Positions 5,353-30,864 of a stretch of DNA of 64,000 nt are shown here, one piece after another. Position 1 is the first letter of the stretch. Each line of letters begins with the position of its first letter. Source of the DNA: Pseudonocardia ammonioxydans (GTDB taxonomy: Bacteria; Actinomycetota; Actinomycetes; Mycobacteriales; Pseudonocardiaceae); contig NZ_FOUY01000003.1 in the NCBI RefSeq assembly GCF_900115005.1, forward strand, positions 62,001-126,000, read 5' to 3'. Position numbers and translations under genes: made by a program. Under the pieces are notes generated by a model. The model searched no databases. It was not told the origin of the DNA and was given only the letters and a program-made list of their open reading frames with translations.

Positions 5353-6819
5353 CTAGTAGGTGAACGCCGGTTCGCGGTGCTCGGCCGGCTCGGGCGGCGC
5401 CCCGCCGGAGTCCGGGCCGTCATCGGCACCGGGGTCGTCGGTGGCCGGCACCGCCGGGCCGGGACCGGCCTTGACGTAGCGGAACAGCAGGCCGACCTCC
5501 ACGACCGCGAGCACGCCGTAGATGAGGGTGAACGCGGCGAGGGAGAACGCGACCTGGCCGAGGCTGACGCCGGGGGAGACGCTGGCCGCGGTCAGCAGCT
5601 CGCCGTGCACCGTCCAGGGCTGGCGGCCCATCTCGGTGAGGATCCAGCCGAAGATGTTGCCGGCCAGGGCGGCGGGCAGCGCCGCGACGACGACCCGGTA
5701 CATCCACCGGCTGCGCGGCAGCCGTCCCCGGCGGGTCAGCCACAGCCCGGCGACCGAGACCGCGACCCCGGCGAGCCCCAGGCCCATCATCAGCCGGAAC
5801 GACCAGTACAGGACGGCGATGTTGGGCCGGTAGTCCCCGGGGCCGTAGTAGGCCTCGTACTGGGCCTGGACGTTCTCGATGCCCTGCACGGTGCCCCACG
5901 GGTCGCCGGTGGCGAGGAAGCTCAGCACCCCGGGGATCTGCAGGTTGATGTGGTTGCGGCTGCCCTCGATGTCACCGACGGCGAACAGCGAGAACCCGGC
6001 GGACTCCTCGGTCTGCCAGAGGGCCTCGGCGGCGGCGATCTTCATCGGCTCGTGCTGGGTGGCCAGCTTGGCCTGCTGGTCACCGGAGACCGCGACGAGC
6101 GCGCCGGCGATCGCGGTGACCAGGAACCCGGCGCGCAGGCTCTTGCGGAACAGCTCGTGCACTGTGTGGTCCGGTTCCTGCGCCGCACGCCGTTCCTGCA
6201 GCAGCTTCCACGCGCTCACCGCCGCGACGAACAGGCCGGCGATGACGAACGCGGCCGCGACCACGTGCAGGTAGGTCGACCAGGCCTGCGGGTTGCCCAG
6301 CACGGCGCCGATGTCGGTGAGCCGGGCGCGCCCGGTGGCCTCGTCGACCTCGAAGCCGACCGGGTTCCGCATCCAGGCGTTCGCGGCGAGGATGAAGAAC
6401 GCCGACAGGTTCGAGCCGATCGCGGCGGCCCAGATGCAGGCCAGGTGCACCCCCTTGCGCAGCCGGTCCCACCCGAAGATCCACAGACCGATGAAGGTCG
6501 ACTCCAGGAAGAACGCGATGAGCGCCTCCATCGCCAGCGGGGCGCCGAAGACGTCGCCGACGAAGGTCGAGTAGGTGCTCCAGTTCATCCCGAACTGGAA
6601 CTCCTGGACGATGCCGGTGACGACGCCCATCGCGAAGTTGATCAGGAAGAGCTTGCCGAAGAACGTCGTGGCCCGCAGGTACTCGGCGCGGCCGGTGCGG
6701 TGCCACGCGGTCTGCAGTGCGGCGACGATGACCGAGAGCCCGATCGTGAGCGGCACGAACAGGAAGTGGTAGATCGTCGTGACCCCGAACTGCCAGCGCG
6801 CCAGGTCCAACGCGTCCAT
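5353..6819 (-). CDS. cydA: Cytochrome bd oxidase subunit I
   Basis: 488 aa, first gene of the cyd operon. The start MDALDLARWQFGVTTIYHFLF is typical; His18 corresponds to the heme b595 ligand (E. coli His19). The segments NWSTYSTFVGDVFGAPLAMEA and FFLESTFIGLWIFGWDRL match the family core, and a quinol-binding loop follows around residues 240-300 without the long insertion of E. coli (short Q-loop type). It acts in the cytoplasmic membrane as the quinol-oxidising, heme-bearing subunit. Expression is probably controlled from the inverted-repeat region at 6842-6876. Confidence 0.96.
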   Translation of the reverse strand: MDALDLARWQFGVTTIYHFLFVPLTIGLSVIVAALQTAWHRTGRAEYLRATTFFGKLFLINFAMGVVTGIVQEFQFGMNWSTYSTFVGDVFGAPLAMEALIAFFLESTFIGLWIFGWDRLRKGVHLACIWAAAIGSNLSAFFILAANAWMRNPVGFEVDEATGRARLTDIGAVLGNPQAWSTYLHVVAAAFVIAGLFVAAVSAWKLLQERRAAQEPDHTVHELFRKSLRAGFLVTAIAGALVAVSGDQQAKLATQHEPMKIAAAEALWQTEESAGFSLFAVGDIEGSRNHINLQIPGVLSFLATGDPWGTVQGIENVQAQYEAYYGPGDYRPNIAVLYWSFRLMMGLGLAGVAVSVAGLWLTRRGRLPRSRWMYRVVVAALPAALAGNIFGWILTEMGRQPWTVHGELLTAASVSPGVSLGQVAFSLAAFTLIYGVLAVVEVGLLFRYVKAGPGPAVPATDDPGADDGPDSGGAPPEPAEHREPAFTY

Positions 6820-6841
6820 CTGCGCCCCGCCTTCCGCGAAG

Positions 6842-6876
6842 TTCTACGTTCAGTAGTAGTTCTACCGTACGTAGAA
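6842..6876 (-). promoter_or_regulatory. Putative operator upstream of cydA
   Basis: This 35-bp AT-richer island in very GC-rich DNA has TTCTAC at 6842-6847 and 6860-6865 and the inverted copy GTAGAA at 6871-6876. The last two sites form TTCTAC-CGTAC-GTAGAA, a 17-bp imperfect palindrome, and AGTAGTAG lies between the two direct copies. It lies 23-57 bases upstream of the cydA ATG and has the look of a dimeric repressor operator. Which regulator binds cannot be told from the window; no regulator gene is adjacent. Confidence 0.55.
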
Positions 6877-6964
6877 GGTGAGCGCGCGACCAGCCGCCGT
6901 GGGGTGCGTTACGTGTGTCGCGTCCGGACGGTGCGGCGCCTGGCTCGCCGCCCGCCGGCCCCGC

Positions 6965-8407
6965 TCAGGAGCCGGCGAAGGCCCCGTGGGCCCGGAGTAC
7001 CTCGAGCACCTCGGGCAGGTCGGCGAAGGCCCGCTCGACGTCGCCCGGTGCCGCGACCCGGTGCGCGTGCGTGGCCACGTAGTCGCGCATCGCGGCGTCG
7101 AAGCGTTCCTCGCCCACTCGCCGGCGGCCCTCGAGCAGGGCGGCGGCGCCCTGGTCGTAGACGCCGGTGACGTAGTCGGAGAAGCCGCCGCCGCGCCGGT
7201 CCCAGAATGCCATCGGGGCACCGATCGGGCCGTCCTCGCCGCGGGAGAAGTCGGCGATCCGGTACTGGCCGACCTGGCCGGCGACCAGCGCCTGGGCCCA
7301 GGTCGCGAACGCCTCGTCCAGCCACGGGTCGCGGCCCTGGTCGTTGCCGACCAGCGAGTAGAACCACATGTGCGCGAGCTCGTGGGCGGCCAGCGACCCC
7401 CGGGTGCCGTCGGCGACGTCGCCGAACTGCAGGTGGGTGGGGAACTCGACGCCGTCGCTCTGGGTGGGCACGACAGTGAGCCACAGCTCCGGGTACGGGT
7501 AGGGCCCGAGCAGCCGCTCCAGGCGCGGCAGGTGCTCGGCGACGGCGTCGGCCCAGTCCTGGGCGGAGCCGCGCAGTGCACCGCCGTGCCCGACCCCGGC
7601 CCGGCCCGCGGCCGGTACCGCGATGTGCACCCGGGTCGCCCCGACGGTCGTCTCGGTGATCCGGTAGGCGCCGACGGCGACCGCGACGTCGCGCAGTGCC
7701 TCGGCGGTGAACGTGTGCGTGGTGCGGCCCGGTCCGGCGGGCGCGGTGCCGGTCGGGGTGCCCACGCCGGCGACCTGCTGGTCCGCGCCCGCGGTGACGG
7801 CCAGCGAGGCGATCCGGGCGTCCTCGGACACGACCGTCTCGCCGGACATCCGCACCGCCGGGTCCCGGGCCCAGCCGCGGCCCTGGACCCACGCGAGCAC
7901 CGGCAGCGGGGTGCCGAGCCACGCGGTCCCGGCCGCGGGGGAGTGGCCGATCCGCTCGGTGGAGTCGGCGCCGAGGGTGAGGTCGAACCCGAGCTCGGCG
8001 GTCACCGTCGTGCCGGCGTCCACACAGGACGGCAGCGGGAGCTCGACCAGCGTGCCCGGCGCCCCGGCGGGAGCTCCGGCCTGCTCGGTGCGCGGGGTGA
8101 CCGCCGTCCCGTCCACCGCCGCCCGGGTGACCCGCGACGAGGTGCCGTCCTCGACCGTCGCCGGGCGGTTGGCCCAGAGCCGGAACACCAGCTCACAGAT
8201 CCGGGCGTCGGGGGTGAACCGCACGGTCTGCGTCCCGGTCGCCGACGACAGGTCCGGCGCCATGTCCAGGGTGGCGTCGACGACCGGGCGGTCCTCCCGC
8301 GGCGGAGCGCGGTCCGGCTCCGGGACGCCGGCGGCGCAACCGCCCAGCACGGCGAGGACGATCGCGGCCGCGGCGAACCCGCGGTAGCGCCGGGCCTGGT
8401 CGATCAT
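6965..8407 (-). CDS. M1-family zinc metallopeptidase lipoprotein
   Basis: 480 aa. A signal peptide ends in a lipobox LGGC (Cys24), so the enzyme should be anchored on the outer face of the membrane. The aminopeptidase N-like fold carries the gluzincin site H342-E-L-A-H346 followed 18 residues after the second His by Glu365 (WLDEAF). The exopeptidase GAMEN loop appears as the divergent DGVEFPTHLQF. It is shorter than PepN because the C-terminal helical domain is missing, as in other small lipoprotein M1 peptidases. It is the last gene of the synthetase operon, 10 bases after the acyltransferase-like gene, so it may process, degrade or protect against that operon's product (inference). Confidence 0.85.
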   Translation of the reverse strand: MIDQARRYRGFAAAAIVLAVLGGCAAGVPEPDRAPPREDRPVVDATLDMAPDLSSATGTQTVRFTPDARICELVFRLWANRPATVEDGTSSRVTRAAVDGTAVTPRTEQAGAPAGAPGTLVELPLPSCVDAGTTVTAELGFDLTLGADSTERIGHSPAAGTAWLGTPLPVLAWVQGRGWARDPAVRMSGETVVSEDARIASLAVTAGADQQVAGVGTPTGTAPAGPGRTTHTFTAEALRDVAVAVGAYRITETTVGATRVHIAVPAAGRAGVGHGGALRGSAQDWADAVAEHLPRLERLLGPYPYPELWLTVVPTQSDGVEFPTHLQFGDVADGTRGSLAAHELAHMWFYSLVGNDQGRDPWLDEAFATWAQALVAGQVGQYRIADFSRGEDGPIGAPMAFWDRRGGGFSDYVTGVYDQGAAALLEGRRRVGEERFDAAMRDYVATHAHRVAAPGDVERAFADLPEVLEVLRAHGAFAGS

Positions 8408-20124: not shown

Positions 20125-22349
20125 CCATTCCCGACTTCACCTCGTTGCCCCTGAACGCCCCGGCCGGCGCCGCGGCGGCCGGGCCGGCGGCGTCCGCGTG
20201 GTCCGGTTCCGCGCCGACCTGGGAGGCCCCGGAGGGGATCGGCGTCAAGCCGCTCTACACCCCGGCCGACCTCGCCGACGTCGACTTCCTGCGGACCTAC
20301 CCGGGGATCACGCCGTACCTGCGCGGGCCGTACCCGACGATGTACACCAACCAGCCGTGGACGGTCCGGCAGTACGCCGGGTTCTCCACCGCGGCCGAGT
20401 CGAACGCGTTCTACCGGCGCAACCTCGCCGCGGGCCAGAAGGGCCTGTCGATCGCGTTCGACCTGGCCACCCACCGCGGCTACGACTCCGACCACCCGCG
20501 CGTCGCCGGCGACGTCGGCATGGCCGGGGTCGCGATCGACTCGATCCTCGACATGCGCCAGCTGTTCGACGGCATCCCGCTGGACAAGATGTCGGTGTCG
20601 ATGACGATGAACGGCGCCGTGCTCCCGGTGCTCGCGCTCTACATCGTCGCGGCCGAGGAACAGGGCGTGGCGCCCGAGAAGCTGACCGGAACCATTCAGA
20701 ACGACATTCTGAAGGAGTTCATGGTCCGCAACACCTACATCTACCCGCCGCAGCCGTCGATGCAGATCATCTCCGACATCTTCGGCTTCACCAGCGCGAA
20801 GATGCCGAAGTTCAACTCGATCTCGATCTCCGGGTACCACATCCAGGAGGCCGGGGCGACCAACGACCTCGAGCTCGCCTACACCCTCGCCGACGGCGTG
20901 GAGTACCTGCGGGCCGGGGTCGACGCCGGGCTGGACATCGACAAGTTCGCGCCACGGCTGAGCTTCTTCTGGGCGATCGGCATGAACTTCTTCATGGAGG
21001 TCGCCAAGATGCGGGCCGCGCGCCTGCTCTGGTCGAAGCTCGTGAACCGGTTCGACCCGAAGAACGCCAAGTCGCTGTCGCTGCGGACGCACTCGCAGAC
21101 CTCCGGCTGGTCGCTGACCGCGCAGGACGTCTACAACAACGTCGTCCGCACCTGTGTCGAGGCGATGGCCGCGACCCAGGGCCACACCCAGTCGCTGCAC
21201 ACCAACGCGCTCGACGAGGCGCTCGCGCTGCCCACCGACTTCTCCGCGCGGATCGCGCGCAACACCCAGCTGCTGCTGCAGCAGGAGTCCGGGACGACCG
21301 GCGTGGTCGACCCGTGGGGCGGCTCGTACTACGTCGAGAAGCTGACCTACGACATCGCGAAGCGGGCGTGGGCGCACATCGACGAGGTCGAGAAGGCCGG
21401 CGGGATGGCGCAGGCGATCGACGCGGGCATCCCGAAGATGCGCGTCGAGGAGGCCGCGGCCCGCACCCAGGCCCGGATCGACTCCGGCCGCCAGCCGGTG
21501 ATCGGCGTCAACAAGTACGTCGTCGAGGCCGACGAGCAGATCGACGTGCTCAAGGTCGACAACGCGAACGTGCGCCGCGAGCAGCTGGACAAGCTGGCGC
21601 GGCTGCGGGCCGAGCGCGACGACCGCGCCGTCGACACGTCGTTGCGCGCGCTCACCGGCGCCGCGGAGAAGATCGCCGAGGGCTCGCGGCGCGGCGACGA
21701 CGAGAACCTGCTCGGCCTGGCCGTCGACGCGGCCCGGAACATGGCCACGGTCGGGGAGATCTCCGACGCGCTGGAGAAGGTGTTCGGGCGCCACGCCGGT
21801 CAGATCCGCATCATCTCCGGTGTGTACTCCGAGGAGGCCGGGCAGAACCCGGCGATCGACCGCGCCCGCGAACTCGTCTCCGAGTTCGCCGAGCACGAGG
21901 GCCGCCAGCCGCGGATCCTGGTCGCGAAGATGGGCCAGGACGGGCACGACCGCGGTCAGAAGGTGATCGCGACGGCGTTCGCCGACATCGGCTTCGACGT
22001 CGACGTGGGCCCGCTGTTCCAGACCCCGGCCGAGGTCGCGAAGCAGGCCGCCGAGTCCGACGTGCACGTGATCGGGGCCAGCTCGCTGGCCGCCGGGCAC
22101 CTCACGCTGGTCCCGGAGCTGCGCCGCGAGCTCGCCGCGGTGGGCCGGGAGGACATCATGGTCGTCGTCGGCGGGGTCATCCCGCCGGCCGACGTGCCGG
22201 AGCTGCTGGAGATGGGCGCCGCGTCGGTGTTCCCGCCCGGCACGGTGATCGCCGAGGCCGCGGTGGACCTGCTCGGGAAGCTGTCGGCGAACCTCGGGCA
22301 CGACGAGTCCGGACAGGCGGCCGGGACCGGCAGCGTCTTCGCGGACTGA
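20121..22349 (+). CDS. mutB: Methylmalonyl-CoA mutase large (alpha) subunit
   Basis: 742 aa, full family length. The N-terminal catalytic barrel holds [41 protein letters not shown] and [12 protein letters not shown]. The C-terminal B12 domain has DGHDRGQ (axial His609), the SSLAAGHL segment and VVVGGVIPP, the full DxHxxG...SxL...GG cobalamin motif. It is the adenosylcobalamin-binding catalytic subunit. It starts at a GTG overlapping the mutA stop and is followed by a strong hairpin and then meaB, the usual mutase chaperone context. Confidence 0.97.
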
Positions 22350-22367
22350 GCCCGCCGCCCGCTCGCA

Positions 22368-22396
22368 GGCCGGCACCCCTGCGCGGGGTGCCGGCC
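22368..22396 (+). terminator. Hairpin between mutB and meaB
   Basis: A perfect 12-bp stem (GGCCGGCACCCC with its complement) closes a five-base loop TGCGC. It starts 19 bases after the mutB stop. There is no T-tract, as is common in high-GC actinobacteria. It may attenuate rather than abolish read-through into meaB. Confidence 0.7.
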
Positions 22397-22492
22397 CCGC
22401 TGCGTCGTGTGTGTCTGCGTCCTGTGTGTCGCGGCCCCGCCCCCGTGGCCGCCCGTGTTCGGATCCCGACCCCCGAGAACCGGAGGACCTCC

Positions 22493-23479
22493 ATGGCCCC
22501 GCGCGTCCCCGACCCCGCGGAGCTCGCCCGCGGTGTCCTGGCCGGCGACCGCACCCTGCTGGCCCGGGCGATCACCCTCGTCGAGTCCAGCCGGCCCGAC
22601 CACCAGCGGGCCGCCCAGGAGCTGCTGCTGGAGCTCACCCCGAAGGCCGGGAACGCCGTGCGGGTCGGCATCTCCGGGGTGCCCGGCGTGGGCAAGTCGA
22701 CCTTCATCGAGGCGCTCGGTACCCGGCTCACCGGCCGGGGGCACCGGGTCGCGGTGCTGGCCGTCGATCCCTCGTCCACCCGGACCCGCGGGTCGATCCT
22801 GGGGGACAAGACCCGGATGCCGCAGCTCTCGGTCGACCCGAACGCGTTCGTCCGGCCCTCGCCGTCGGCGGGCACGCTCGGCGGGGTCGCCCGCCGCACC
22901 CGGGAGACGATGGTCGTGATGGAGGCCGCGGGCCACGACGTCGTGCTCGTCGAGACCGTCGGGGTCGGGCAGTCCGAGACGACTGTGGCGGGGATGGTCG
23001 ACACGTTCCTGTTCCTGACCATCGCCCGCACCGGCGATGCGCTGCAGGGGATCAAGAAGGGCATCCTGGAGCTGGCCGACGTCGTCGCGGTCAACAAGGC
23101 CGACGGCCCCTACGAGCGCGACGCGAAGGCCGCCGCCCGCGAGCTCGCCGGCGCGCTGCACATGATGACCCCGACCTCGCAGAACTGGCGCACCCCCGTG
23201 CTGTCCTGCTCCGCGCAGACCGGCAAGGGTCTGGACGCGGTGTGGGACAAGGTGTGCGAGCACCGCGACACGCTGGACAGAGCCGGGGAGCTGGCGACCC
23301 GGCGGGCCGACCAGCAGGTCGACTGGATGTGGCAGATGGTGCGGGACCGGCTGATGGACCGGGTGCTGCACGACCCCGGCCTGAAGGCCAAGCTCCCGGA
23401 GCTCACCAACGACGTCCGCACCGGCGGCCTGACCCCCACCCTGGCCGCCCAGTCCATCCTCGAGAATCTTGGCTTGTGA
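22493..23479 (+). CDS. meaB: MeaB, GTPase chaperone of methylmalonyl-CoA mutase
   Basis: 328 aa G3E-family GTPase: P-loop GVPGVGKSTF, then VDPSSTRTRGSILGDKTRM, the switch segment VETVGVGQSE and the base-recognition motif VNKADG. MeaB (ArgK/MMAA) gates adenosylcobalamin loading onto MutB and protects it from inactivation. The ATG at 22493 follows CGGAGGACC. It lies 143 bases after mutB on the same strand, separated by a hairpin. The old name ArgK kinase is not supported by current knowledge of the family. Confidence 0.95.
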   Translation: MAPRVPDPAELARGVLAGDRTLLARAITLVESSRPDHQRAAQELLLELTPKAGNAVRVGISGVPGVGKSTFIEALGTRLTGRGHRVAVLAVDPSSTRTRGSILGDKTRMPQLSVDPNAFVRPSPSAGTLGGVARRTRETMVVMEAAGHDVVLVETVGVGQSETTVAGMVDTFLFLTIARTGDALQGIKKGILELADVVAVNKADGPYERDAKAAARELAGALHMMTPTSQNWRTPVLSCSAQTGKGLDAVWDKVCEHRDTLDRAGELATRRADQQVDWMWQMVRDRLMDRVLHDPGLKAKLPELTNDVRTGGLTPTLAAQSILENLGL

Positions 23480-23515
23480 GTGGTTGTCGCGGCCCTGACC
23501 GCGACAACCACTCAC
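23476..23515 (+). terminator. Long perfect hairpin overlapping the meaB stop codon
   Basis: A perfect 17-bp stem (left arm GTGAGTGGTTGTCGCGG, right arm its complement) closes the loop CCCTGA. The left arm contains the meaB stop codon at 23477-23479. It separates meaB from the regulator gene, whose start is 30 bases downstream, so it probably ends the mut-meaB transcript. Confidence 0.85.
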
Positions 23516-23533: not shown

Positions 23534-23548
23534 TAGCCTGGCGGCGTG
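23534..23548 (+). promoter_or_regulatory. -10 element and leaderless start of the GntR regulator gene
   Basis: TAGCCT (23534-23539) lies exactly six bases before the GTG start, with no ribosome binding site. This TAnnnT-N6-GTG spacing is the usual layout of actinobacterial leaderless transcripts and fixes the start codon choice. Confidence 0.6.
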
Positions 23549-24259
23549 AGTACCGATGCGCCGGAGTCGACGACGGCGCCCGTCGGTTCGGCGGCGACCA
23601 CTTCAGTGGCCCCCCGCCGGGCGAGCGTGGCCAGTCGAATCGTCGGCGAGATCCGGCACATGATGCGTACCGGCGAACTCGCTCCAGGCCAGCAAGTTCG
23701 CCAGGAGTCGCTCGCCGCCCGGCTCGGTGTGAGCCGTATCCCGGTGCGCGAGGCGTTGAAGGTGCTGCAGACCGAGGGTGTCCTGCATCATGAGCCGAAC
23801 GTCGGGTACTCGGTCACCCGGCTGAGCGTCGACGAGCTGCGCCAGACCTACCTGATGCGCCGGGCGCTGGAGACCGAGGTCCTCCTGGCACTGCCACGGC
23901 TGAATCAGGCCGCGCTGCGCGAGCTGGCCGCGCTCAACGCCCGGGTCGGGGAGGAGGTCGACGGTGGGGACGTCGCGAGAATCGCGGCGGCCAACCATGA
24001 CTTCCACTTCACGATGTTCCGGCACTCCGGCCTCGGCCTCGTGGTCGGGGAGATCGAGCGGATCTGGCGGATGACCGACGCTTATCGCACCGTGCACCTC
24101 TACGACTCGGCGGCCCGGCGGCGGCTCGTGCGCGAGCACAAGGCGATGATCACAGCGTTGCGCCGAGGGGACAACGCCGCCGTGGTCGACCTGATGAACG
24201 CACACCGCGACCTCACCGTCGCCGATCTCGGCGCAACCCTGGCATCGAGAGGCCGTTAG
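23546..24259 (+). CDS. GntR-family transcriptional regulator with FCD ligand domain
   Basis: 237 aa. The winged helix-turn-helix spans about 25-95 (IVGEIRHMMRTGELAPGQQ, LAARLGVSRIPVREALKVLQTEG). The C-terminal FCD all-helical ligand domain carries ANHDFHFTMF, REHKAMITALRRGD and NAHRDL, including His residues that commonly bind a metal and a small carboxylate ligand. FCD regulators usually repress catabolic operons until the substrate appears. It is followed after 106 bases by an MFS symporter and the selenoprotein operon on the same strand, the likely target. GTG start, leaderless. Confidence 0.9.
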   Translation: MSTDAPESTTAPVGSAATTSVAPRRASVASRIVGEIRHMMRTGELAPGQQVRQESLAARLGVSRIPVREALKVLQTEGVLHHEPNVGYSVTRLSVDELRQTYLMRRALETEVLLALPRLNQAALRELAALNARVGEEVDGGDVARIAAANHDFHFTMFRHSGLGLVVGEIERIWRMTDAYRTVHLYDSAARRRLVREHKAMITALRRGDNAAVVDLMNAHRDLTVADLGATLASRGR

Positions 24260-24311: not shown

Positions 24312-24365
24312 CGATCCCCGGGCCGGCTCGGTGCACTGCTGCACCGACCCGGGATGGGAGGTCGC

Positions 24366-25643
24366 ATGAGCACCGGACAGGCCGGCTCGGGCTCGGCCGT
24401 GACGCTCGAGTACACCCCGGGGGAGCGTCGGCGGATCCTCGGTGCCGCATGTCTGGGCTGGGGCATGGAGTACTTCGACTTCATGCTTCCGTCGCTGCTC
24501 GCCGGACCGATCATGGCCGAGTACGGCATCACACCCGCGACGTTCAGCCTGGCGATCGTGGTGCAGCTGATCGGCTCCGCGGTCGGTGGGGTGTTGTTCG
24601 GCTGGCTCGGGGATCGTTTCGGGCGTCGGCGAACGCTGATCTGGTCCATCCTGATCTACTCGATCGCGACCGGACTCGTGTTCTTCGCCCCGAACTTCAC
24701 CGTGTTCGTCGTGCTCCGGTTCTTGACCGGGGTCGGCACCGGCGGCGAGTGGGCCGTGGGATTCGCCTGGTTGAACGAGGCGTGGTCGCCGAAGCGGCGC
24801 GGTCTCGGGGGCGGGCTCGTGCAGTCGTCGCTGTGGCCGGCCTATGCACTGGCGATCCTCGCCGCCCAGCTGGTCCCGGACTGGCGAACGGCGTTCCTGC
24901 TCGGGGTGCTGCCGGCCCTTGCCTGTGTGTGGGTCCGGATCGCCACGCCGGAGTCGAAGCAGTGGACCGAGCTGCAGCGTCGCAAGGCTGCCGGTGAGCT
25001 GACGCCGGAGGTGGCCGCGCAGGTCCGGCGCTCCGGCTGGGCCCAGCTGCTCTCCCGGGACAGCCTGCCGATCGTCGCGGTCGGTGTGGTCGCGGCGTTC
25101 GGTGCCCAGTGGGTGCCCTACACGGCGACCACCTGGATGCCGTCACTCCTGCGCGAGGACCTCGGCTACGAGTCCGGATCCGCGAGCCTGGTGCTCTATC
25201 TCGCCTCGGCCGTGTCGTTCGTCGCCTTCATCCTGGCCGGCTATCTGTCCGACAGGCTCGGCCGCCGGAGTGTCTTCCTCACCTTCTCCGGACTGCAGGC
25301 GGTGACCTTCGCAGTGATGCTGGGGATCGCGGTCACCGGGTCCGGGATGGGCAACCTCGCCTGGCTCTACCTGGTCTCGAGCTTCTTCCTCGGCTACTTC
25401 GGCATCTTCGGTGTGTGGTTCGGCGAGCTGTTCCCCACCCGGTTGCGGTCGTTGGGGTCGGCCGCGGCCTACAACATCGGCCGGGGCCTCTCCGGTCTGG
25501 GCACGCTGATCGGCGGCATCATCGCCACCACCGAGGGCTACGGAATCGCGGTCGGAATCGCGGTCTTCGGAGCCGTGCTGGTCTTCGGTGCGGCGTACTT
25601 CCTGCGCGACCGCGCAGGGCGAGTCATCACGGCGGAGGACTGA
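24366..25643 (+). CDS. MFS transporter, probable metabolite:H+ symporter
   Basis: 425 aa with twelve predicted helices. Helix 1 contains WGMEYFDFMLPSLL with the acidic residue typical of the aromatic-acid/metabolite:H+ symporter groups. The loop 2-3 signature GWLGDRFGRRR and its second-half repeat GYLSDRLGRRS are present, and so is FLTGVGTGGEWAVG in helix 4. It acts in the cytoplasmic membrane, most likely as an importer of a small organic acid-like compound. GGGAGGTCGC precedes the ATG. The next gene, a selenoprotein, begins five bases after its stop, so the transported compound is probably the substrate of that system. Confidence 0.88.
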   Translation: MSTGQAGSGSAVTLEYTPGERRRILGAACLGWGMEYFDFMLPSLLAGPIMAEYGITPATFSLAIVVQLIGSAVGGVLFGWLGDRFGRRRTLIWSILIYSIATGLVFFAPNFTVFVVLRFLTGVGTGGEWAVGFAWLNEAWSPKRRGLGGGLVQSSLWPAYALAILAAQLVPDWRTAFLLGVLPALACVWVRIATPESKQWTELQRRKAAGELTPEVAAQVRRSGWAQLLSRDSLPIVAVGVVAAFGAQWVPYTATTWMPSLLREDLGYESGSASLVLYLASAVSFVAFILAGYLSDRLGRRSVFLTFSGLQAVTFAVMLGIAVTGSGMGNLAWLYLVSSFFLGYFGIFGVWFGELFPTRLRSLGSAAAYNIGRGLSGLGTLIGGIIATTEGYGIAVGIAVFGAVLVFGAAYFLRDRAGRVITAED

Positions 25644-25648
25644 TCGAC

Positions 25649-27373
25649 ATGTCTGACTACGAACCGCGCTACGACGTCGTGTGGCCGCTCGGGCGCCGGG
25701 TGGTCGGGGAGGTCGTGGAACAGGAACGGCCCGCTGAGCTCGGTGGTCGTACCGTGGCCTACCTGTGGGACGAGCTGTTCCGCGGGCCCGAGATGTTCGA
25801 GGTGATCTCCGAGGTCGCTCGCGACCGGTTCGACGACGTCGAGTTCGTCGGCTGGGAGGAGTTCGGCAACTTCCACGCCTCGGCAGCTGAGGAGAAGCGC
25901 GTCCTGGAAGCGCTGCCCGAGCTGCTCCGCTCCCATCGCGTCGACCTCGTGGTCGCCGCCGTGGGTGCTTGAGGCTCGTGCATGCCTGCCGTGATGCGGG
26001 CAGCGGCCGCCGCCGAGCGGGCCGGGGTTCCGGCCGTGGCCATCGGCGGGGGAGGCTTCGAGCCGATGGGCCGAGCCATCGCCAAGTCCCTCGGCATCAG
26101 CCACGTGCCGATCGTCAGCTACCCCGGTGTGATACTCGCCGATGACTCGGCGACCTTCCGGACCAAGATGCGCTACGAGGTCGCCCCGGCGGTGGTCGAT
26201 GCTCTGGTGGCCGAGTCGCCCGGGACCGGCGAGGTCGCGACCGCGCCGGAGGAGCCGGAGCGGGAGCACTCCACCCGCGCGGTCGTGTTCTCCGGTGAGC
26301 TGGACGCCGTCCAGGACCACTTCGAGGAGCAGGGCTGGACGGACGGCCTACCGATCGTGCCGCCCACACTCGAGCGGGTCGATGCCTTCCTCGCCCGGAC
26401 CCGGCGCGACCCGAACGAGGTGCTCGGAAGCCTCGCCCCGGAGCAGCGAGAGGCCACCGTGTGGAACGTGGCCGTGAACGGCGTGCTGGCCGGGTGCACC
26501 CCGGAGCACATGCCGGTGTTGCTGGGGATCGTGGAGTGCCTGGTCGATCCGGTCTTCCGCGTTGCCGACGCCGGGTCGACCCCCGGCTGGGAGCCGCTCG
26601 TGGTGCTCTCCGGTCCTGTCGTCGAACGGCTGGGTTTCAACTCCGGGACCGGAGTGATGCGGGTCGGACGTCGCGCGAACACGGCCGTCGGGCGATTCGT
26701 CCGGCTCTACCTCCGGAACCTGGCGGGGCTGCGGACCCCACCGGACCACACCGACCAGGGAGCCATCGCGACGTCGTTCAACGTGGTGCTCGCGGAGAAC
26801 GACGACGCCGTGCGCGACGCCGGATGGTCGTCGTTCCGCGAGGATCGCGGCTTCGCCGCCGCGGACAGCGTCGTGACGGTGCAGAGCTGCGTGACGATCA
26901 GCGCGCCGATCTACTCCGCCGGTGAGGACGCGGCCGGTCACCTGCATGCGTTGACGGTCGGGATGCGGGACGCGATGGGCCCCTGGTCCTACACGGGGAT
27001 GGAGTTCGGGGCGTGGCATCCGCTGCTCGTCGTCGGTCCGAGCATCGCCCGGGCGCTGGCGGGCTACGGGATCGACAAGACGGCGATCCGCGCGCACCTC
27101 GCCGAACACGCCCGGATCACGGTCGCGGAGCTCGAACGGTGCGCCTGGGCGGTCGGCTCGACCGGCTTCCGGGTGGACGAGCTGGTGCGCCGTGGTGAGC
27201 TCGATCAGCGGTACGCCGGGACCGACCCGCAGCGGACCGTGCCCATGTGCACGCGGGCCGACGACATCGGGATCGTGCTGGCCGGGAATCCGAGTCGCAA
27301 CCAGTCACGCGGCTACGTGCAGAACCACGTACAGGGAGCACCCGTGAGCCGGCGGATCGAGGAGGAACCGTGA
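25649..27373 (+). CDS. UGSC-family selenoprotein fused to a C-terminal uncharacterised domain (UGA at 25970 read as Sec)
   Basis: 574 aa if the in-frame UGA at 25970-25972 is read as selenocysteine (residue 108). The surrounding reading VVAAVGA-U-GSC is the hallmark of the UGSC (seleno)protein family. The frame then continues uninterrupted for 466 codons with family-like sequence (AERAGVPAVAIGGGGFEP, VPIVSYPGVI). A SECIS-like hairpin follows the UGA. The first downstream ATG (25982) lies inside the UGSC motif and lacks a ribosome binding site, so a split into two genes is unlikely. Residues about 215-574 form a second domain with EEQGWTDGLPIVPPT and VLAGC(283)TPEHMP, repeated in the two genes at 28839 and 29863. 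Function unknown; a thiol/selenol redox reaction is likely. Confidence 0.88.
25970..26018 (+). promoter_or_regulatory. Selenocysteine UGA codon with bacterial SECIS-like hairpin (first UGSC gene)
   Basis: UGA occupies 25970-25972. An apical stem CTGCC (25986-25990) pairs with GGCAG (25999-26003) around the loop GTGATGCG; the loop begins with G, 18 bases after the UGA. A lower stem GCTCG (25974-25978) can pair with CGAGC (26014-26018). Bacterial SECIS elements need a short upper stem, a G in the first two loop positions and roughly 16-37 bases between UGA and loop; all are met. Confidence 0.75.
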
Positions 27374-28266
27374 CCGACGACGTGTGGGATCTGGCTGTGG
27401 TGGGGGCTGGGATGGCCGGGCTGACCGCGGCGACGGTCGCGGCCGAACACGGCGCCCGGACCGTCGCCCTGGACCGTTTGGCACCCGGTGGTCAACTGAT
27501 CAACCTCGGTGACGTGAGTGACTATCCCGGGCTGCCGGTGAAGACGAGCGGCCCGGACCTGGCCGGGACATTGCTCGAGAACGCGATGTCGGCGGGGGTG
27601 GAGATCTCCTATACCGAGGTCACCGAACTGACTACCGGGTCGCCCCACACGGTCCGGACCCTCGACGGGTCGGTTGCCGCCACCACGGTCGTCGTGGCCA
27701 CCGGACTCGCCCCCGGCAGGCTCGACGTGCCTGGTGCGGACGAGTGGGCGGGTCGCGGACTGTCCGAGTGCGCGAGCTGTGACGGTCCGCTGTTCACGGG
27801 GCAGCGCGTGGTCGTCGTCGGTGACGACGACTGGGCGGCCCAGGAGGCGGTCGAACTGGCCGGGGTGGCCGCACATGTCACGGTCCTGCTCCCGGGCCCA
27901 TCGCCGCTGTGGTCCGCCCGCCGCGCGGCGATTCTCGCGGCGAGCGGTGTCGCGGTGCGCGAGGGCGCGGTGGTCGTCGGGATCGATGGTGACAGAACCG
28001 TGACGGGGATACGGCTCGCCGACGGGGTGGAGATCCCGGCCACCGGAGTCTTCGCCCAGGTCGGGCGGGAACCGCGCTCCGGGCTGGTCGAAGGGGTCCT
28101 GAAGCGAGCCGCCGACGGGCGGATCACCGGCACGCCGGATGCCGACGCTCCCGGACTCCACGTGGCCGGGCCGGTGCGTGCCGGGGTCTCCGACCATCTG
28201 ATCGCTGCCGCGGCGGACGGACTCGCTGCAGGCCTGGCGGCGGTCGCCGACCTGCAGATGAGATGA
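27370..28266 (+). CDS. Thioredoxin reductase-like flavoprotein with atypical nucleotide motif
   Basis: 298 aa. It has the FAD motif VVGAGMAGLTAATVAAEHG, GGQLINLGDVSDYPG and the redox-active pair C134-A-S-C137 in SECASCDG, as in bacterial thioredoxin reductases (usual motif CATC). The second Rossmann motif, normally GGGDSA, reads VGDDDWAAQEA, and the NADPH-specific HRR segment is absent (LLPGPSPLWSARR). It may therefore use another nucleotide, ferredoxin or a protein donor. The GTG overlaps the stop of the first UGSC gene as GTGA and the second UGSC gene follows 45 bases later, so it probably reduces these selenoproteins (inference). Confidence 0.85.
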   Translation: MTDDVWDLAVVGAGMAGLTAATVAAEHGARTVALDRLAPGGQLINLGDVSDYPGLPVKTSGPDLAGTLLENAMSAGVEISYTEVTELTTGSPHTVRTLDGSVAATTVVVATGLAPGRLDVPGADEWAGRGLSECASCDGPLFTGQRVVVVGDDDWAAQEAVELAGVAAHVTVLLPGPSPLWSARRAAILAASGVAVREGAVVVGIDGDRTVTGIRLADGVEIPATGVFAQVGREPRSGLVEGVLKRAADGRITGTPDADAPGLHVAGPVRAGVSDHLIAAAADGLAAGLAAVADLQMR

Positions 28267-28311: not shown

Positions 28312-28842
28312 GTGCGCATCATCGATCCCACCTACGGCACACCGAGTGAGGAGGCGAGTACCGCTGTCGCGGGCGACCGGCCCCCGGCCGGGACACTGTG
28401 CCTGTTCTCGAACTCCAAGCCCGGTGCGAGCGATCTGCTGCGGGGCGTCGGAGACCAGCTCGGTGCCGAACGTGGCATCCTCGACGTCGGCTTCGCCGCG
28501 AAACCCAATGCGGCAGCCGGGGCCGACGAGGACCAGCTCGACCACCTCGCGGCCCGGTACCGGATGGCGGTCGTCGCGATCGGTGATTGAGGATCCTGCT
28601 CGTCGTGGAGTCTCCACGACTCGGTCGAACTTGAACGTCGCGGCGTCACGGCGTTCCTGATCGTGACCCGTACCTTCCTGCCTCTGGTCACCGCGCAGGC
28701 GAAGGCCAGACGGGTCGATCCCCGGGTGGTCGTCGTCGAGCATCCCGTCGGCGGCCTGGACCCGTCCGGGCTCGAGGGACGGATCGCGAGTGCCTACGCC
28801 GGAATCGCGCATGCACTGGACGAGCTGGAGGAGGCGATGTGA
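28312..28842 (+). CDS. UGSC-family selenoprotein, stand-alone (UGA at 28588 read as Sec)
   Basis: 176 aa if the UGA at 28588-28590 is selenocysteine (residue 93). The context MAVVAIGD-U-GSC matches the UGSC motif and parallels the first gene. After the UGA the frame continues (GVTAFLIVTRTFLPLV, PRVVVVEHPVGGLD) to a stop that overlaps the next GTG. The N-terminus VRIIDPTYGTP and FSNSKPGASDLLRGVG are typical of the short family members. The GTG at 28312 is chosen because GAGAGGAG lies just upstream; an ATG at 28297 has none. An annotation that stops at the UGA would lose the active site. Function is uncharacterised; redox chemistry by the Sec/Cys pair is likely. Confidence 0.87.
28588..28626 (+). 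promoter_or_regulatory. Selenocysteine UGA codon with bacterial SECIS-like hairpin (second UGSC gene)
   Basis: UGA occupies 28588-28590. A perfect 8-bp apical stem, GTCGTGGA (28602-28609) with TCCACGAC (28613-28620), closes the loop GTC. The loop starts with G 19 bases after the UGA, inside the known spacing window. A weak lower stem may form between 28592-28595 and 28623-28626. This is one of the strongest hairpins inside a coding region here. Confidence 0.8.
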
Positions 28843-29870
28843 GCGACCCCGGCGTGCTCGAGATACCCGACCTCGGTCCTGCCGAATGGTTCTCCTGGGT
28901 GGAGGAACGCGGCTGGGGCGACGGCCTTCCCACGGTTCCTCCGACCGAGGACCTCGTGGACGCCATGCTCGCCGCGTTGCCGTCCGACCTACCGGAGTTC
29001 GGACCGCTGCCGCCGAGCCGGCTGGTTCCGGCTCCACGGGCGGTCGCCGCGAACGCCGTGATGGCAGGCTGCCGTCCTCTCGACCTGCCGACGGTGCTCG
29101 CCGCACTGGCCGGTGTGCAGCAGGATGCCTACAACCTGCACGGCACTCTCGCCACGACCCATCCCTGTGCGCCACTGATCGTGGTGAGCGGCCCGGTGCG
29201 GGAGCGGCTCGGTCTCAACGGCGCCGGGAACTGCTTCGGATCGGGTACGCGGGCGAACGCGGTGATCGGCCGCGCGTTGTCGCTGATCCTGCTCAACCTG
29301 GCTGGGGCCCGGCCACCTGCGATGGACCGGTCGACCCAGGGCTCGCCGGCGAAGTACACCTACTGCTTCGCGGAGAACACCGGGGACAGCCCCTGGGAGC
29401 CCTTCGGCGTCCGGCGTGGCTTCGATGCGGACGAGAGCGTGGTGACCGTTCTGGCGGCCGAGCCCCCACACAACATCAACGATCACGGCAGCACCACGGG
29501 AGAAGGGATCCTCACCACGATCGCGGGCACGATGGCGCAACCCGGATCCAACAACGTCTATGTCCGTGGCCCGCACCTCCTGGTACTCGGCCCGGAGCAT
29601 GCAACGACGCTGCACCGCGACGGCTGGACGGTGGAGGCGATCCGTCGTGCTCTGTGGGAGCGGGCGCGGATCCCGGTCGACGCGGTGTCCGAGGGCAACC
29701 GCCGCCAGTTCACCGAATGGGGGATCGAGCCCGACGGCGACCACTACACCGTCAGCACGGGGCCGGAGCAGTTGCAGGTACTGGTCGCGGGTGGAGCCGG
29801 CAAGCACTCGGCCTGGATCCCGTCGTTCGGGGCGACCGAGGCGGTGTCCGTTCGGGTTCCCGGTGGGTGA
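28839..29870 (+). CDS. UGSC-locus protein homologous to the C-terminal domain of the first selenoprotein
   Basis: 343 aa, not recognised as a named family. It is clearly related to residues 215-574 of the first UGSC protein and to the next gene. Shared features are the N-terminal motif VEERGWGDGLPTVPPT, the invariant AGCRP (Cys78), CAPLIVVSGPVRERLGLN, GTRANAVIGRALSLILLNL and a C-terminal QVLVAGGAGKHSAW. There is no signal peptide or membrane segment, so it is cytoplasmic. Its GTG overlaps the stop of the second UGSC gene as GTGA. The conserved Cys could exchange with the Sec centre, but no function is known to me. Confidence 0.75.
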   Translation: MSDPGVLEIPDLGPAEWFSWVEERGWGDGLPTVPPTEDLVDAMLAALPSDLPEFGPLPPSRLVPAPRAVAANAVMAGCRPLDLPTVLAALAGVQQDAYNLHGTLATTHPCAPLIVVSGPVRERLGLNGAGNCFGSGTRANAVIGRALSLILLNLAGARPPAMDRSTQGSPAKYTYCFAENTGDSPWEPFGVRRGFDADESVVTVLAAEPPHNINDHGSTTGEGILTTIAGTMAQPGSNNVYVRGPHLLVLGPEHATTLHRDGWTVEAIRRALWERARIPVDAVSEGNRRQFTEWGIEPDGDHYTVSTGPEQLQVLVAGGAGKHSAWIPSFGATEAVSVRVPGG

Positions 29871-30864
29871 GTGGCCGCTCGTGGCCGAGGGGACAGCGGT
29901 GGAGGACGCCACGGCCGCGTTGCTGATCGGCGGCATCGGGGACGGGCTGCCGGTCGTGCCACCGACGGCGGCGCGACTGGAGGCGATGCTCGCGGGTGTC
30001 GCTGCCCCGGACGCCGCCCTCGGAGCGGTGCCGCCGTTGTTCTCCGAGCTGACTCCGGCGGGCGCCGCATACCATGCGGTACTCGCCGGATGCCGTCCCT
30101 CGGAACTGGGAGTGGTGCAAACCGCACTACAGGCCTGTCTGGCGCCGGAGTTCAACCTCCTCGGCGTCCAGACGACGACCGGCACGGCTGCCGTCGCGGT
30201 CGTCGTGCGCGGGCCGGTGGTCGCCGCCCTGGGGATGAACACCGGGACGAACCTGCTCGGCCCCGGGAATCGGGCCAACGCCGCGATCGGGCGTGCGGTC
30301 GCACTCGCGCTGGCCGGGATCGGTGGTGCCCGACCGGGCGAGACCGACATGGCCACCACCGGACAGCCGGGCCGGTACGGGTTGTGCCTTCCGGTTGCAC
30401 CGCGAGCGGCGGACGATCGACCGGAGGATGCCGATACGGTCACCGTGCTTGCTGTCGGTGGCACAGCCGAGGTGTTGCCCCGCGGTGAGGGCCGCACCGC
30501 CGCCGAGATCCTGGACCCTCCCGCTGCTCTGTTGGCCGGGTCGGCCTTGGCGGCGGGGGACCCGGGACGGATGAGCGCCTGCGAACAGGCTCTCGTCGTG
30601 CCCCCGGAGGTCGCGGAGCGAGTGCACGCACTCGGCATCGCTGATGTGGCCGCAGAACTCTATCGGCGCGGCAACGAGTTGCTCGCGAATCACGGGCTGT
30701 CGCAGGAGCGGGTCGCGGCGTCGGCCGAGGCGGTACATGTGCTCGTCACCGGTGGCGCCGGTATCAAGATGGTGCATCTGCCCGGCTGGATCGGCGGTAG
30801 CCGGGCGGTCACCCGCCCCATTCGATGCCCCGGCGGTGAGCCGGTGTCCGTGGCGGAAGGCTGA
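29863..30864 (+). CDS. Second UGSC-locus companion protein, paralogue of the preceding gene
   Basis: 333 aa. It is a third copy of the same domain: GDGLPVVPPT, AGCRP (Cys77), VVRGPVVAALGMNTGTN, NRANAAIGRAVALALAGIGG and HVLVTGGAGIKMVHLPGW. The chosen GTG at 29863 overlaps the end of the preceding gene by eight bases; a GTG at 29881 is an alternative start. It closes the operon. The three copies (one fused, two separate) suggest a hetero-oligomeric enzyme with the UGSC subunits, which is inference from domain reuse. No transmembrane or cofactor motif was identified. Confidence 0.72.
   Translation: MGEWPLVAEGTAVEDATAALLIGGIGDGLPVVPPTAARLEAMLAGVAAPDAALGAVPPLFSELTPAGAAYHAVLAGCRPSELGVVQTALQACLAPEFNLLGVQTTTGTAAVAVVVRGPVVAALGMNTGTNLLGPGNRANAAIGRAVALALAGIGGARPGETDMATTGQPGRYGLCLPVAPRAADDRPEDADTVTVLAVGGTAEVLPRGEGRTAAEILDPPAALLAGSALAAGDPGRMSACEQALVVPPEVAERVHALGIADVAAELYRRGNELLANHGLSQERVAASAEAVHVLVTGGAGIKMVHLPGWIGGSRAVTRPIRCPGGEPVSVAEG

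Follow-up and report, generated by a model that had tools for sequence, protein, structure and literature searches.

The question raised by this locus is whether a reading frame broken by an in-frame TGA codon encodes a single selenocysteine-containing protein, and if so, what that protein and its neighbors do. The frame (positions 25649–27373) lies in a 64,000-nucleotide stretch of the Pseudonocardia ammonioxydans genome (assembly GCF_900115005.1, contig NZ_FOUY01000003.1, positions 62,001–126,000), referred to here as the window, and all positions below are those of the window unless stated otherwise. An earlier reading of the letters alone (the sequence-only reading) proposed that the TGA encodes selenocysteine (Sec) in a member of the UGSC family fused to a second domain, which we call X. 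The fusion, UGSC1-X1, is part of an operon with the order major facilitator superfamily (MFS) carrier, UGSC1-X1, thioredoxin-reductase-like flavoprotein, UGSC2, X2 and X3, and from its composition and that of related loci we propose that it encodes a Sec-dependent reductase.

In-frame TGA codons in two UGSC genes

The motif GCT-TGA-GGC-TCG-TGC at 25967–25981 interrupts an otherwise open frame, and the match to the Pfam UGSC family (PF24696, E 3.7e-24) spans the codon, covering residues 9–187 of UGSC1-X1; the sequence-only reading was correct in treating this as one interrupted frame. It counted only one Sec gene in the operon, and in this respect it was incomplete, as it overlooked UGSC2, which has a TGA of its own (Table 1) and no open reading frame (ORF) of at least 100 aa in its own frame in the program-made ORF list. 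Both genes score well above the PF24696 gathering cut-off of 25 (86.2 bits for UGSC1 and 124.1 for UGSC2), and a search of the whole genome with this model returns just these two matches, both in the operon and each with one TGA. The equivalog cut-off of NF041046 (125) is not reached by UGSC1, the only one of the two scored against it (45.9 bits).

Comparison with relatives indicates that the codon is read through. Among 394 genomes sampled from the class, 23 contain UGSC genes, with 34 matches listed, of which 31 could be aligned (three had no locus). Five of these aligned sequences have a stop, all in the same column, and the other 26 have Cys there. A second set of 85 UGSC genes, taken from 80 further loci, has TGA at the Sec site in 75 cases, TAG in four and a Cys codon in six. 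In the joint alignment of 116 sequences all 84 stops share a single column, and Cys, the replacement for which the sequence-only reading had suggested searching, is there in each of the 32 sequences without a stop. The codon is also kept in the Actinomycetospora straminea orthologue of UGSC1-X1, and differences between the two genes at codon positions 1, 2 and 3 number 9, 11 and 39 upstream of the TGA and 93, 78 and 194 downstream of it; because they accumulate at third positions on either side, both segments appear to be coding.

The machinery for Sec insertion, whose absence the sequence-only reading named as grounds for rejection, is present. SelA (369 bits), SelD (385 bits) and SelB (256 bits) all exceed their curated cut-offs and are encoded on contig C76 of the same genome, together with a tRNA-Sec with the anticodon UCA. 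In each of three genomes checked the anticodon matches the stop codon: the TGA-containing genomes (G000 and G086) have tRNA-Sec(UCA), and in a third (G390), where both UGSC genes have TAG, a tRNA matching the tRNA-Sec model with 64 bits has the anticodon CUA. The use of UAG for Sec in UGSC-motif genes of the Geodermatophilaceae is already published (PMC5330540). SelB is above its cut-off in seven of the 23 UGSC-bearing genomes, namely every one of the three with a stop in the Sec column and four with Cys, and a SelB-like gene adjoins UGSC-X in three of the 80 further loci (L103, L108 and L129), two of them confirmed by NCBIfam. We note that in G086 (contig C94, locus L091) the tRNA-Sec gene is approximately 10 kb from the UGSC gene. 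Outside the window, a formate dehydrogenase alpha-like gene (L191; contig C109, 248183–250048) has an in-frame TGA in the context NRT-TGA-HAPSVVGL, which we take to be the usual Sec site of formate dehydrogenases, and is probably a third selenoprotein gene of this genome. Taken with the stop/Cys column, the anticodons and the codon-position pattern, the machinery supports the Sec interpretation, and the TGA at 25970–25972 almost certainly encodes Sec.

A hairpin resembling a selenocysteine insertion sequence (SECIS) follows each TGA in the window (Table 1). Across 73 TGA genes the predicted hairpin after the codon is more stable than in dinucleotide shuffles (mean z -1.84, compared with 0.07 at 120 bases further on), and with a null that preserves the protein and local codon use, 66 distinct TGA stretches give a mean z of -1.56 (p 4e-10), with control stretches at -0.21 (p 0.06) and -0.13 (p 0.79). 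Three observations speak against a SECIS signal: the stretches of the two window genes do not deviate significantly when taken singly (z -0.16 and +0.26), the two distinct TAG stretches have a mean z of +0.63, and six Cys genes, with a mean z of -1.07, are indistinguishable from the TGA genes (p 0.21). An Rfam scan of the whole window gave no match at the gathering threshold.

X is a regular partner of UGSC

The sequence-only reading also noted that the C-terminal domain of the fusion recurs as two separate genes in the operon, and X2 and X3 are indeed homologous to X1 (36% identity over 269 residues for X1/X2, and 39% over 143 for X1/X3). X is present in 29 of the 31 class-sample loci (with 1.5 kb flanks), and in 20 longer stretches, from 15 of the 23 UGSC-bearing genomes, it is next to 19 of 21 UGSC genes. 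The two exceptions are L062 (the same place as L049), where the UGSC protein has no second Cys, and L065, where X is about 6 kb away. The former is a second UGSC paralogue of G345, in which the first Cys is kept, AWSY replaces GSC and no X is nearby. A scan of the named genomes with the X alignment gave at least 574 confirmed stretches, and in the best 80 of the 574, which are the further loci used above, UGSC is present in 71, with 77 of the 85 UGSC genes no more than 600 bases from X and on the same strand. X thus is a regular partner of UGSC.

The two are more often neighbors than fused: beyond the window, 17 of these 85 UGSC genes share one frame with X, with the Sec codon as the sole stop. 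The fusion described by the sequence-only reading therefore stands, although it is the less common arrangement, and because homologues with both domains in a single frame exist, the two parts do not occur only as separate genes. A tree of X (87 rows, being 84 of the 102 X genes in the 80 loci and the three from the window, with rows shorter than 250 aa or with inner stops excluded) includes Actinomycetota, Pseudomonadota, Chloroflexota, Acidobacteriota, Poribacteria and others. The fusion label requires eight changes on this tree, at least three of them forced by well-supported branches, so that UGSC and X have been joined or split several times. X1 clusters with the fused X of Actinomycetospora and of three Betaproteobacteria, and X2 and X3 each fall in a clade of their own; because these clades match in species pattern, X2 and X3 appear to travel together. 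Two rows come from metagenome bins labelled Chitinophaga pinensis (L114) and Bordetella parapertussis (L156); their X sequences closely resemble those from betaproteobacterial bins and the labels look doubtful.

X resembles no family we could identify. X1 has no Pfam or NCBIfam family match; among 81 members scanned against Pfam, 15 families appear at E values up to 1, each in only one or two members; and comparison with PDB sequences gives no convincing E-value. The X2 model has no fold match at E ≤ 0.001 among PDB and viral models, the top PDB match being a class I fumarase subunit (E 1.8e-3, TM-score 0.25). These searches without a match in Pfam, PDB or viral models make a new fold possible. 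By profile comparison X is not GrdE (PF09338; probability 0.8), the N-terminal part of GrdB (0.2) or a relative of UGSC itself (0.5). Nine residues are invariant in 81 X sequences (D23, G24, L25, P26, G72, C73, G113, G139 and R140 in the numbering of the X2 model).

UGSC is distantly related to the Sec domain of GrdB and PrdB

The structure predicted for the fusion has a mean predicted local distance difference test score (pLDDT) of 89.7 and a predicted template modeling score of 0.92. Its UGSC part is a parallel alpha/beta domain whose five strands follow a beta-alpha order and in which Sec108 is directly before a helix (residues 111–124), and we read this predicted topology as Rossmann-like rather than thioredoxin-like. 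There is no thioredoxin in the top 50 of 1,119 PDB matches to the UGSC model, and none of the matches reaches E ≤ 0.001; the best match of UGSC2 among PDB sequences (E 0.065) is an unrelated ABC protein. A thioredoxin fold for UGSC was rejected on the basis of the predicted fold and of the relationship described next.

Profile alignment by hhalign of UGSC with GrdB/PrdB-like sequences, the Sec-containing components of glycine and D-proline reductases, gives a probability of 96.2 (E 2.6e-9) with Sec aligned on Sec, whereas none of 30 column shuffles exceeds 1.4 and reversing the alignment yields 2.1. A run with the GrdB and PrdB-like rows combined gave 94.8 (shuffles ≤ 1.0), and 43 of 44 families from neighboring genes, used as controls, score no more than 2.9. 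The Sec site is conserved in the relatives used: TGA occupies the aligned position in 16 of 16 GrdB relatives (L071–L090, with four of the 20 loci excluded) and in all 14 usable PrdB-like genes (from 18 loci, L196–L213; three lacking the motif and one false match were excluded). Genes of the GrdB/PrdB family (PF07355) are present in 76 of 396 Actinomycetota genomes, and the P. ammonioxydans genome has no PF07355 match. Many of the actinobacterial matches are limited to the C-terminal, PrdB-like part. The profile comparison supports distant homology between UGSC and the Sec domain of component B of the glycine and D-proline reductases.

A thioredoxin-reductase-like flavoprotein in the operon

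The flavoprotein gene between the two UGSC genes scores 182 bits against the thioredoxin reductase model TIGR01292, below the cut-off of 343, and contains a CASC dithiol; like that family it is a flavoprotein with CxxC, and by this model is a relative rather than the housekeeping enzyme. Such a gene is found in 13 of 100 loci, with CxxC in all 13 (two of these loci, L052 and L099, probably represent one and the same site). The order flavoprotein, UGSC, X2, X3 is common to the window and L097–L103, with X3 partial in L097 and approximately 1.3 kb away in L098. The flavoprotein and UGSC2 of the window are separated by a TGA stop (28264–28266). In contrast, in L098–L101 (two Blastococcus and two Geodermatophilus, all Geodermatophilaceae; about positions 6530–7980) the flavoprotein frame runs uninterrupted to the Sec codon of UGSC, a UAG, and the two are therefore a single polypeptide, a natural fusion of a thioredoxin reductase relative to a Sec protein in four genomes.

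Organization of the operon and its surroundings

The genes from the MFS carrier through X3 overlap or are separated by gaps of at most about 50 bases, an arrangement that fits a single transcript. The GntR/FCD-type gene upstream (Table 1) is probably the regulator of the operon. The closest NCBIfam matches of the MFS transporter are acid/H+ symporters, with scores under the cut-off, and it is a probable importer. Directly before the GntR gene (20300–23480) are genes which we take to be for a methylmalonyl-CoA mutase-like and a MeaB-like protein; these are not upstream of the GntR gene in L097. Neighbors across the loci resemble genes of organic-acid catabolism, including those for tripartite-transporter binding proteins, CoA-transferases, acyl-CoA dehydrogenases, hydratases and ligases, with the labels mostly read from the sequences of clusters. 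Ten neighbor proteins were scored against NCBIfam; one tripartite-transporter binding protein run against it gave no match. No one substrate stands out among the neighbors of the loci.

Table 1. Features of the UGSC operon and its putative regulator in the window
Feature	Coordinates	Strand	Remarks
GntR/FCD-type regulator	23546–24259	+	Pfam FCD 6.7e-19, GntR 1.3e-15; orthologue at the same place in L097
MFS transporter	24354–25643	+	Pfam MFS_1 9.2e-45; orthologue in L097
UGSC1-X1 fusion selenoprotein	25649–27373	+	574 residues, Sec108; orthologous fusion in L097
UGSC1 TGA, predicted Sec codon	25970–25972	+	
SECIS-like hairpin after UGSC1 TGA	25983–26002	+	7-bp stem, 6-base loop; not significant singly
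X1 domain of UGSC1-X1	26234–27370	+	By alignment; homologous to X2 and X3
Thioredoxin-reductase-like flavoprotein	27370–28266	+	CASC motif; start overlaps UGSC1-X1 stop; Pyr_redox_2 7e-26
UGSC2, second selenoprotein	28312–28842	+	PF24696 8.4e-36; start codon picked by eye
UGSC2 TGA, predicted Sec codon	28588–28590	+	Same codon is TGA in L097 and L102, TAG in L099
SECIS-like hairpin after UGSC2 TGA	28602–28620	+	8-bp stem, 3-base loop; not significant singly
X2, stand-alone partner	28839–29870	+	Start overlaps UGSC2 stop; model pLDDT 95
X3, second stand-alone X	29863–30864	+	Start overlaps X2 stop; start codon picked by eye

A predicted Sec-dependent reductase

We propose, with a probability of roughly 0.6, that the operon encodes a flavoprotein-driven Sec reductase, in which the flavoprotein would reduce the Sec-Cys pair of UGSC, X would be the substrate subunit, and an imported organic acid would be reduced. 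The MFS carrier would bring in a small organic acid, and electrons from NAD(P)H would pass via the flavoprotein to its CASC dithiol and from there to the Sec-Cys pair, a route suggested by the gene linkage and the natural flavoprotein-UGSC fusions. By analogy with related enzymes, the UGSC selenolate would attack the substrate and expel a leaving group, and the flavoprotein would then reduce the resulting Se-S bond. The adjacency and fusion of X to UGSC suggest that X, with its invariant Cys, binds and orients the substrate. In glycine reductase a selenolate displacement occurs at the carbon beside the carboxylate, and the same position of attack may apply here, although this is speculative and draws on analogy to that enzyme and to the fluoroacetate case discussed below. 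Two units of this kind would be present in the cell, one being UGSC1 fused to X1 and the other UGSC2 together with X2 and X3.

Several points weigh against this proposal. Activity, substrate and complex are all predictions from sequence. The flavoprotein is in only 13 of the 100 loci, so that most relatives must have another electron donor, and in L065, L066 and L067 it is on the strand opposite to UGSC. X lacks a detected UGSC in nine of the 80 loci, six of them Poribacteria (L155, L159, L163, L166, L169 and L173), and by profile X is not GrdE. What UGSC shares with GrdB and PrdB is confined to the Sec domain, neither UGSC1 nor UGSC2 has a PF07355 hit up to E 10, and the hhalign probability declines to 91.9 with GrdB rows alone and 84.9 with PrdB-like rows alone. 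One of the 44 control families scored 98.6; this is a flavoprotein cluster whose Geodermatophilaceae ORFs extend into the fused UGSC half, which explains the score, and the flavoprotein alone gives 0.3. Neither SECIS-like hairpin of the window reaches significance by itself.

Four other explanations were considered. It is unlikely that UGSC is a general thioredoxin-like selenoprotein of thiol-disulfide exchange or peroxide defence with X as an accessory redox domain: the UxxC motif and the thioredoxin-reductase-like neighbor fit such a role, but the predicted parallel five-strand alpha/beta domain without thioredoxins among its closest structural matches, the homology to GrdB and PrdB, and the linkage to X and to catabolic rather than stress genes (partly our own reading of the sequences) do not. 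X could instead be the enzyme, for example a hydro-lyase or hydrolase, with UGSC merely a redox regulator or maturation factor. Its larger size, better conservation and nine invariant residues favor this, as do the loci with X and no detected UGSC and the weak resemblance to a fumarase subunit; but the latter is not significant, fusion and adjacency point to stoichiometric partners, and the Sec domain of UGSC resembles a catalytic one, and we regard an accessory role for UGSC as improbable.

A function in metal or metalloid detoxification, with the Sec-Cys pair as ligand, is very unlikely. Metal binding is proposed for some other selenoproteins in a 2026 review (PMC13188914), but no metal-resistance family was found in the few neighbors scanned and those in relatives look catabolic. 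Least credible of all is that the UGSC1 TGA is an ordinary stop that divides two genes or marks a decayed one. An ATG at 25982, nine bases past the TGA, does begin an ORF of 463 aa, yet Met is found there in only one of the 31 class-sample sequences, that of the window itself, and the single column of stops with Cys otherwise, the coding pattern flanking the TGA, the Sec machinery and the formate dehydrogenase gene with its own in-frame TGA all argue for Sec. The flavoprotein-driven Sec reductase is thus the explanation that we prefer.

Relationship to known systems

Some of the components are known already, namely the UGSC selenoprotein family, a UGSC fusion described in 2008, and UAG-encoded Sec in UGSC. 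Both Sec genes of the operon match PF24696 and share the UGSC motif of the family (PF24696/NF041046), whose members have either Sec or Cys in it; to this the window adds the partner X, the flavoprotein and the relationship to GrdB and PrdB. The 2008 ocean selenoproteome mentions a UGSC/Unknown_1 fusion and notes that such fused domains generally contain a conserved Cys (PMC2398784); this too is UGSC joined to a conserved domain, with Unknown_1 comparable to X by description only. The literature searched, which included PMC9312934 and PMC5029168 besides the papers cited here, was available in part and lay outside subscription journals and supplements; it gave no link of UGSC to GrdB or PrdB, to a thioredoxin-reductase-like flavoprotein or to a defined partner family.

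Like GrdB (PF07355) and PrdB, UGSC has a homologous Sec domain, aligned Sec on Sec, in a two-part arrangement of Sec subunit and partner. It differs in that the rest of GrdB is absent and in that X corresponds to neither GrdE nor the GrdB N-terminus by profile. Another parallel is the farACEB operon of Synergistota, for which reductive cleavage of fluoroacetate is proposed (PMC10838667), and which likewise combines a transporter, a GrdB-like Sec protein and a partner with proposed cleavage of a small acid. However, FarB and FarE are true GrdB and GrdE relatives from anaerobes, whereas the UGSC operon has X and the flavoprotein.

We tentatively suggest, at somewhat less than even odds, that UGSC-X and its thioredoxin-reductase-like flavoprotein form a third type of Sec-dependent substrate reductase, in addition to the glycine and D-proline reductases. 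Only the Sec domain would be common to the three; X, as a new partner fold, would replace GrdE/PrdA, electrons would come directly from a flavoprotein (in the same chain in some species), the substrates would be organic acids, and the host lineages would be largely aerobic. Glycine and proline reductases, in comparison, are typical of amino-acid-fermenting anaerobes.

With 255 genes, UGSC ranked fifth in gene count among selenoprotein families in the ocean survey of 2008 (PMC2398784), and the 2026 review still places it with families of largely uncharacterized function (PMC13188914). Identification of a regular partner, along with a probable electron donor and a relative that hints at mechanism, makes the function of UGSC amenable to defined tests, and the results argue against its assignment to the thioredoxin fold. 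They also suggest that Sec chemistry like that of glycine and proline reductases may occur well outside the amino-acid-fermenting anaerobes.
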